This document shows, in pieces, positions 62,830-64,000 of a stretch of 64,000 bases of DNA. The first letter of the stretch is position 1. The number at the start of each line of letters is the position of its first letter. Origin of the DNA: Candidatus Rokuibacteriota bacterium (GTDB lineage Bacteria > Methylomirabilota > Methylomirabilia > Rokubacteriales > CSP1-6); the NCBI GenBank assembly GCA_003220685.1, contig QHTE01000052.1, positions 111,174-175,173 of the forward strand. Reading direction: 5' to 3'. The translations under genes were made by a program, and so were the position numbers. The notes under the pieces are model-generated. The model was not told the origin of the DNA. It saw only the letters and a program-made list of their open reading frames with translations, and did not search any database.

Positions 62830-64000
62830 TTAGTCGGCCTTCCACCGAATGGACTTCAAGTCCACGCCTTCCTTGGCCAGCTCGTAGAGCGGAGACATCT
62901 CGCGCAGCCGCTTGACGACGTCGATCGTCCTGGCGCCGACGTGCTCGACTTCCTCTTCGGTGGTGAACCGGTGCAGGCTGAAGCGGATCGACGAGTGGGC
63001 CAGCTCGGCGCTCGCGCCCAGGGCGCCGATCACGTAGGACGGTTCGAGCGTCGACGACGTGCAGGCCGAGCCCGAGGACAGGGCGCTCTCCTTGTTGAGC
63101 CCCATCAGCACCGACTCGCCCTCGACGTACGCGAACGAGATGTTCAGGTTGTGCGGCAGCCTCCGCTCCGGGTGCCCGTTCAGGTACGCCTCGTCGACGT
63201 TCGAGAGGATCATGTCTTGCAAGCGGTCGCGGAGCTTCGCGAGCCGCGCGCTCTCCTCGGCCATCACCTCGCCACAGAGCTCGGCCGCTCGGCCGAAGCC
63301 CACGATGAGCGGCACCGGAAGCGTCCCCGACCGCATCCCGCGCTCGTGACCGCCGCCGTCGATCAGCGGCGCGATCCGCACCCGCGGCGCCTTGCGCCTG
63401 ACGTAGAGCGCGCCCACACCCTTGGGGCCGTAGATCAGGTGCGCGGTGCACGACAGGAGATCGATGCCCGCCGACTCCACGTTCACCGGAATCTTGCCGA
63501 CGGCCTGCGTGCCGTCAGCGTGGAAGATGATCCCCTTCTCCTTGGCCAGCTTGCCGATCGCCGCCACGTCCTGGATCGTGCCGATCTCGTTGTTCGCGAG
63601 CATGACCGAGATCAGGATCGTCTTGTCGGTCAGCGCCTGCCGGATCGCGTCGACCTCGACCAGGCCGTCGGGCCGCACCGGCACGTACGTCACCTCGAAG
63701 CCCTGCCGCTCCAGGCGCTTGCAGACGTCGAGGCTCGCCCGCTGCTCGATGGCAGTGGTGACGATGTGGTTGCCCTTCTCCCGGTACATCTCCGCGACGC
63801 CCTTGATCGCGAGGTTGATCGACTCGGTTCCCCCGGAGGTGAAGATCACTTCCTTGGGGTCGCGGGCGCCGATGAGCTTCGCGAGCTGCTCGCGGGCGCG
63901 GTCGACGGCGTTCTCGGCCTCCCAGCCGAAGGAATGGTTCCGGCTCGCCGGGTGGCCGAACTTCTCCGTGAAGTACGGGATCATCGCCTCGACGACGCGC
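62830..64000 (-). CDS. iscS: IscS-like protein lacking the PLP lysine (partial, 5' end outside)
   Basis: Close IscS homologue in the first visible position of the ISC operon; the first about 18 residues lie outside the window. FTSGGTESINLAIKG, NNEIGTIQD, the PLP-pyridine Asp (HADGTQAVGK), GGGHERGMRSGTLP and the persulfide Cys loop SSGSACTSSTLEPS are intact. But the codon at 63436-63438 is CTG (Leu) in TAHLIYGPKG, where the PLP Lys206 of E. coli IscS belongs. The codon at 63742-63744 is CAG (Gln) in AIEQRAS, where the stacking His104 belongs. Spacing between the two sites is exactly conserved (102 residues). Probably inactive as a desulfurase. Confidence 0.93.
   Translation of the reverse strand, partial: RVVEAMIPYFTEKFGHPASRNHSFGWEAENAVDRAREQLAKLIGARDPKEVIFTSGGTESINLAIKGVAEMYREKGNHIVTTAIEQRASLDVCKRLERQGFEVTYVPVRPDGLVEVDAIRQALTDKTILISVMLANNEIGTIQDVAAIGKLAKEKGIIFHADGTQAVGKIPVNVESAGIDLLSCTAHLIYGPKGVGALYVRRKAPRVRIAPLIDGGGHERGMRSGTLPVPLIVGFGRAAELCGEVMAEESARLAKLRDRLQDMILSNVDEAYLNGHPERRLPHNLNISFAYVEGESVLMGLNKESALSSGSACTSSTLEPSYVIGALGASAELAHSSIRFSLHRFTTEEEVEHVGARTIDVVKRLREMSPLYELAKEGVDLKSIRWKAD

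Follow-up and report, generated by a model that had tools for sequence, protein, structure and literature searches.

In the accepted picture of the ISC system, IscS is the hub that produces the sulfur. The ISC operon at one end of a 64,000-nucleotide stretch of Candidatus Rokuibacteriota DNA (the window) encodes an IscS lacking both the lysine that forms the Schiff base with PLP and the histidine corresponding to His104 of the E. coli enzyme, which raises the question of what such a protein could contribute to Fe-S assembly and which enzyme would supply the sulfur in its place.

The ISC locus and its altered IscS

The iscS reading frame is open at the edge of the window, with 18 more amino acids encoded outside it, and the protein comprises 407 amino acids on the contig (L089:10004-11227). 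The features of the locus are given below with E. coli IscS residue numbers, the family being that of the window's genome.

62830..64000, minus strand: iscS, catalytically degenerate (NF010611 577.7 bits, cut-off 548)
63817..63819, minus strand: Ile codon at the Asp79 position, family-diagnostic (ATC in 50/50 family genomes with the site)
63742..63744, minus strand: Gln codon (CAG) at the His104 position, in EQRAS (alignment with E. coli IscS)
63733..63735, minus strand: Ser codon at the Val107 position, family-diagnostic (Gly/Ser/Thr; alignment)
63436..63438, minus strand: Leu codon (CTG) at the position of the PLP Schiff-base Lys206, in TAHLIYGPKG (alignment with E. coli IscS)
63061..63063, minus strand: codon of the persulfide Cys328, retained (alignment)
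62405..62815, minus strand: iscU, scaffold (TIGR01999 217.6 bits, cut-off 192.4)
62054..62383, minus strand: iscA, A-type carrier (TIGR00049 125.2, cut-off 58.8)
61329..61931, minus strand: hscB, co-chaperone (TIGR00714 53.4, cut-off 46.75)
59522..61351, minus strand: hscA, Hsp70 chaperone (TIGR01991 727.1, cut-off 708.55)
59199..59522, minus strand: fdx, 2Fe-2S ferredoxin (TIGR02007 91.9 bits, below the cut-off of 132.1)
58999..59202, minus strand: iscX (TIGR03412 112.9, cut-off 40.4)
58751..58975, plus strand: small gene, no Pfam match
58395..58751, plus strand: DsrE/DsrF-like gene, TusC-like by position (PF02635)
58067..58390, plus strand: DsrE/DsrF-like gene, TusD-like by position (PF02635)
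56867..58039, minus strand: nifS-like cysteine desulfurase, proposed sulfur donor (NF002806 326.3, cut-off 304)
56172..56834, minus strand: cysE-like serine acetyltransferase (gene neighbourhood)

Because iscR lies directly upstream of iscS, just outside the window, the order iscR-iscS-iscU-iscA-hscB-hscA-fdx-iscX equals that of E. coli, and an earlier note on this DNA was right to describe a complete bacterial ISC operon with hscA, hscB, fdx and iscX. Unlike the Rokubacteria locus, the E. coli isc operon has no second desulfurase gene in the stretch examined. iscX and nifS are separated by three small genes at 58067-58975, two of them DsrE-like, which run in the opposite direction and recur in relatives; the one at 58751..58975 we take, by position only, to be DsrH/TusB-like.

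In sequence family and fold the window protein is an IscS (group I cysteine desulfurase), although against TIGR02006 the N-terminally cut protein of the window scores 568.2, below the cut-off of 643.2. An AlphaFold2 model (mean pLDDT 80.5, pTM 0.83, with pLDDT below 50 at residues 211-225, 304-319, which include the Cys loop, and 387-389) finds its best solved match in human NFS1 in ISC complexes (6wi2_A, TM 0.92 by query length), with E. coli IscS next. This closest solved fold is, however, that of a desulfurase that works in its complex (PMC9978102). Rereading of the frame confirms the Leu in TAHLIYGPKG and the Gln in EQRAS at the coordinates first reported and with the same spacing of 102 residues, and alignment places them, as claimed, at Lys206 and His104 of E. 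coli IscS. Asp180 and the Cys loop are present, the persulfide cysteine lying in the motif SSGSACTS.

The consequences of such replacements can be judged from the E. coli enzyme, where the variants H104Q and K206A are each without desulfurase activity, K206A still binds some PLP, and both variants show bands that have been read as cysteine adducts (PMC9978102). The Rokubacteria IscS resembles E. coli IscS in protein family and operon order and is a natural protein altered at both of these laboratory-variant sites (PMC9978102). As a change at either site alone inactivates the E. coli enzyme, it is very likely that the ISC IscS of the family is a pseudo-desulfurase that has lost ordinary activity, unlike the active E. 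coli wild type, while retention of PLP by the degenerate protein is plausible.

Distribution and maintenance of the replacements

The best 80 of 544 confirmed loci in a contig scan comprise 35 from Rokubacteria and 45 from Nitrospirota, Acidobacteria and a few others. Among these 80, all 35 Rokubacteria loci carry Gln at 104 together with Leu or Met at 206, whereas the others keep Lys206 in 45/45 cases and His104 in 44/45, the exception being a Nitrospirota locus (L077). In a search of 95 genomes of the phylum, some of them also covered by the contig scan, 90 had IscS-like matches at E <= 1e-50. The window's family (f1) accounts for 57 of the genomes searched, and an ISC-operon IscS was obtained from 51 of them. 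Position 206 is Leu in 44 and Met in seven of these 51, position 104 is Gln in all 50 in which the site was read, and the replacement residues are uniform in 22 of 24 family genera. Both His and Lys are kept in G092, G093 and G094, one genome from each of the order's three sister families, and likewise in the rows from elsewhere in the class. Since Rokubacteria loci and family genomes share the loss so uniformly, with 51/51 family genomes in agreement, sequencing or assembly error can be rejected as its cause; the comparison with relatives proposed in the earlier note thus reveals a clade-wide state and not a lone error. Six of the 57 family genomes (G041, G044, G055, G077, G081, G083) yielded no ISC-operon IscS, through loss or incomplete assembly. 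One of them, G055, from the window's genus and 95% complete, has SufB/D and SufS matches and no ISC IscS or IscU-type match.

Fifty-two family rows, including one duplicate, were aligned with three sister-family rows and 71 others, and the alignment was searched for positions at which the residues of the sister families, or of more than 5% of the others, occur in less than 5% of the family rows. A second, partial IscS of G037 (contig C231, L142), at zero branch length with G038, is excluded from the genome counts and included among the 52 family rows of the alignment and the 51 of the tree. Four positions, 79, 104, 107 and 206, separate the family: Asp79 is replaced by Ile (51/51 rows with the site; elsewhere Ile occurs in one row, L077), His104 by Gln (51/51), Val107 by Gly, Ser or Thr (51/51) and Lys206 by Leu or Met (52/52). 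The surrounding pocket is conserved. Thr76 and Asn155 are found in 50/50 family genomes and Arg354 in 49/49, the Arg354 stretch being absent in G054 and cut by the contig end in G057; Asp180, Gln183, His205, Thr243 and Cys328 are each found in 51/51, in keeping with the conservation of the Asp and the persulfide Cys loop first noticed in the single sequence. Position 203 is Thr in 51/51 family genomes, and also in 17 of the 71 others. Ten PLP and substrate pocket positions, chosen with reference to the E. coli IscS structure, are invariant in 49 near-full family rows, compared with 169 of 402 sites overall. The IscS of G054 (L127 and L025, apparently one genome) has a 13-residue in-frame deletion across the Arg354 stretch.

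At position 206 the sister families use AAG, which a single step turns into Met (ATG) and two steps into Leu; the seven genomes with Met206 are G069 and a group of six that branches near the base of the family. A tree was built from 79 of the 126 rows with the four diagnostic columns blanked; it holds 51 family rows, G052 being too short and L077 not among the rows. The family IscS groups with its own order with 100 percent SH-aLRT support. Loss of the lysine amounts to two changes on the resolved tree, of which the strongly supported branches force only one, and a single origin within the family is therefore possible, not proven. Replacement by a protein of the Archaeoglobus fulgidus type is rejected by the grouping of IscS with its own order, and by the presence of an Asp-type protein as a separate gene.

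The degenerate iscS is maintained under purifying selection, as its low dN/dS indicates: 0.048-0.104 in 15 congeneric pairs, with a median of 0.155 over 1,275 family pairs, the medians of canonical IscS groups being 0.07, 0.105, 0.173 and 0.175. The dS window of 0.1-1.5 took in all 1,275 family pairs and 65/66, 14/15, 6/6 and 410/990 pairs of the comparison groups. No internal stop occurs in the 51 family IscS rows. The open frames and dN/dS rule out a lone pseudogene and agree with the earlier judgement that this is not simple decay; with the family-wide loss and the inactivity of the E. coli H104Q and K206A variants (PMC9978102), they also uphold its designation of the protein as a probable pseudo-desulfurase.

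The NifS paralogue and other homologues

The nifS-like gene at 56867-58039, overlooked by the earlier note, encodes a protein with EHHAV and SAHKIYGPKG that is about 44% identical to IscS in the window's genome; against TIGR03402 it scores 508.9, below the cut-off of 530.75. iscS and nifS share one locus across the family. In the 40 of 41 loci rows tabulated, which overlap in genomes, Thr76, Asp79, His104, Asp180, Gln183, Ser203, His205, Lys206, Thr243, Cys328 and Arg354 of NifS are invariant, and the sole departure is Ser at the Asn155 position, found in 40/40 loci including that of sister family f2. As f2 has the same nifS locus and a still normal IscS, the paralogue probably predates the loss of the IscS residues. 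A second NifU_N gene follows nifS, before cysE in most relatives, in 35 of 39 loci. Between nifS and cysE it is absent from the window (56834-56867) and from L009, L010 and L134, so that in these four loci NifS has no private scaffold gene.

Lysine-less relatives of IscS are already known from archaea. The A. fulgidus IscS (PDB 4EB5, 4EB7, 4HVK) is lysine-less like the Rokubacteria protein, has no desulfurase activity and lends a Cys ligand to an IscS-IscU cluster (PMC7585200). It has Asp at the Lys site (SSND motif) and keeps the His, whereas the Rokubacteria ISC IscS has Leu or Met and Gln. The Asp is found instead in a third homologue of the window's genome, on contig C91 (L004:1432-2640; L181), which lacks equivalents of Gln183 and Arg354, has A. 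fulgidus IscS (4eb5) as its best PDB hit and is closer to that protein than the ISC-operon IscS is. The parallel with A. fulgidus drawn by the earlier note holds as far as the ISC IscS is a lysine-less homologue, but the better fit is the C91 protein. C91-type matches at E <= 1e-110 occur in 53/57 family and 2/3 sister-family genomes, and all 30 C91-type loci read from the order have Asp at the Lys site, one outside it (L211) having Lys. With Asp in one protein and Leu or Met in the other, the lineage thus carries two different lysine-less relatives of IscS.

In Methanosarcina acetivorans the essential lysine is missing from IscS1, while the PLP residues are retained in IscS2 and IscS3 (PMC7585200); the archaeal iscSU cluster has no further bacterial isc genes, in contrast to the full operon of Rokubacteria. 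Among the open PMC papers listed, neither titles and abstract openings nor passages of PMC12192291 and PMC8300815 mention an IscS of this lysine-less kind within an ISC operon of bacteria; on that basis a full ISC operon assembled around such a protein in a bacterial family, with an intact NifS alongside, appears to be new.

The Nitrospirota exception offers a second degenerate case. L077 (7950-9161) has a cluster iscR-iscS-iscU-fdx-iscX whose IscS keeps Lys206 and shows Ile for Asp79, Ser for His104 and Glu for Gln183; E. coli IscS Q183E is also inactive (PMC9978102). The three replacements are common to 4/4 genomes of its order (L077, L217-L220), and each of these four also encodes a paralogue that is canonical at all the listed residues. 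The different phylum and the canonical relatives suggest that this degeneration is independent of that in Rokubacteria, L077 standing outside the tree. The same four Nitrospirota genomes also carry a further homologue with Ser or Thr for the PLP lysine and other pocket losses (L216, L228, L229, L230).

Docking surface and possible roles of the altered IscS

E. coli IscS contacts IscU at 309-316, Glu347 and 379-391, and deletion of 376-404 abolishes IscU binding (PMC2854127). With G067 and G085 left aside, 13 of the 22 IscU-contact positions match E. coli in every family row that covers them; at 391 the residue is either Lys or Arg, and differences from E. coli occur at 313, 314, 316, 382, 383, 387, 389 and 390. 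From the TusA-contact set the family IscS keeps Trp45, Arg55 and Arg237, with Asp52 in 49/50 and Arg220 in 50/51 genomes, and has lost Glu49; its Arg220/223/225 patch is nearly invariant. The window NifS has no tail; position 45 is occupied by Arg and positions 220 and 225 by Lys, and 223 falls in a gap, but the protein retains Glu309, Glu311, Ser312, Asp52, Arg55 and Arg237. On this residue comparison the catalytic residues reside in NifS and the predicted IscU-binding tail in IscS, with the remaining docking surface partly common to both.

The IscS tail is complete in 47 of the 51 family genomes, which are all 47 with a readable tail and iscU; G068 and G057 run off their contigs. In the remaining two, G085 and G067, IscS ends near residue 388 and after an altered stretch beyond 387, respectively. 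Neither has an IscU-type match genome-wide, the best NifU_N matches (8e-26 and 6e-29) being the second scaffold gene, and both have long branches in the tree (0.26 and 0.42; median 0.084). The G085 locus (L139) is without hscA, iscX and most of iscU, its hscB is down to a 13-residue scrap, and because a scrap resembling the end of iscU trails the IscS stop, tail and iscU may have gone by one deletion. In G067 (L140/L041) the place of iscU to hscA, between iscS and fdx, is taken by a 20-base N gap, so that the missing genes may be a matter of assembly. Both points weaken the case for two independent co-losses of iscU and tail, and the co-loss gives the docking role weak support. The IscS pocket residues are intact in both genomes, which speaks against IscU docking as the sole role of IscS.

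The reading to which we lean, at somewhat better than even probability, is that IscS serves as an assembly platform whose sulfur production has been outsourced to NifS. It starts from what is observed: which residues are present and how well they are conserved, which genes lie nearby, and how catalytic residues and tail are divided between the paralogues. IscS would no longer make sulfur from cysteine, judging from the E. coli variants, and would be retained as the ISC machine's central docking subunit, still dimerising, probably retaining PLP without a Schiff base, and still binding IscU and probably Fdx and IscX. Its mobile Cys328 would still be presented to IscU, either to accept a persulfide and pass it on or to serve transiently as a cluster ligand, and the sulfur would come from the intact NifS-like desulfurase encoded beside the operon. 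The earlier suggestion that IscS acts as a scaffold and not as a sulfur source survives here as the best reading, incomplete as to the intact NifS beside the operon, the nearly whole PLP pocket that is retained and the closer fit of the C91 protein to A. fulgidus IscS. Against the platform stand the retention of that pocket, in G085 and G067 as well, beyond obvious scaffold needs, the docking residues that NifS shares, the NifU_N neighbour that it may serve instead (35/39 loci) and its Ser at the Asn155 position (40/40), and the six of 57 genomes that gave no IscS.

A further objection is SufS, a possible donor found at E <= 1e-90 in 49/57 family genomes; in the window's genome it lies beside a NifU_N gene on contig C39 (L001, L213). 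SUF as the main Fe-S machine is rejected, SufB/D matches occurring in only 9/57 family genomes, with none in the window's genome (87.6% complete). That SufS with its NifU_N neighbour, and not NifS, feeds the ISC system draws on this mostly SufB/D-less occurrence, but we consider it improbable: eight draft genomes (G036, G037, G046, G076, G078, G084, G085, G086), in which absence is soft, have neither a SufS match at that threshold nor SufB/D, and all eight keep a NifS that was read and is intact and an IscS with Leu or Met at 206, which leaves NifS as the visible donor there. Four of them (G037, G046, G084, G086) are 93-98% complete.

The retained pocket invites the idea that it has been remodelled into a sensor or switch gating sulfur delivery, in which PLP or a PLP-cysteine adduct would be bound with no Schiff base. 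Two of the four family-specific positions are catalytic and two lie within three residues of Thr76 or His104 in sequence, the ten other pocket positions are invariant, the pocket persists in the two genomes without an IscU match, and the E. coli K206A and H104Q bands were read as cysteine adducts (PMC9978102); yet invariance could mean that PLP is needed for folding only, and we hold such a switch to be unlikely. Quite unlikely, too, is an IscS that works only in a heterodimer or hetero-complex with NifS, to which it would lend cross-subunit residues and the Cys loop while NifS gives the PLP lysine. The family-wide shared locus, Thr243 in 51/51 genomes and the nearly invariant arginine patch would fit such a complex, but the two proteins are only about 44% identical in the window's genome and NifS usually has its own NifU_N neighbour. 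Continued activity by a Lys-independent route, with another residue as base, could be argued from the retained substrate Arg354 and persulfide Cys328; it is very improbable given that E. coli H104Q and K206A are singly inactive (PMC9978102) and that no new Lys or His appears among the family-specific positions. We see equally little prospect for slow decay of a functionless gene on its way out. The truncated, long-branched IscS of G085 and G067 and the deletion over Arg354 in G054 have that appearance, but low dN/dS, the lack of internal stops in 51 rows and uniform replacements in 22/24 genera contradict it.

A broader proposal, tentative and rather unlikely to hold in full, would be that full bacterial ISC machines run on a dead IscS, that desulfuration moved to a paralogue at least twice, in the Rokubacteria family and in the Nitrospirota order, and that the degenerate IscS, as a regulated subunit for docking and sulfur relay, still binds PLP or its adduct with cysteine although no Schiff base can form. 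For annotation the case is a warning, since a gene that passes the IscS cut-off of NF010611 would be named a cysteine desulfurase. A family in which the hub is kept but apparently switched off is a natural experiment that separates the chemistry of IscS from its docking, and the dependence of ISC assembly on IscS as a platform or relay becomes testable.
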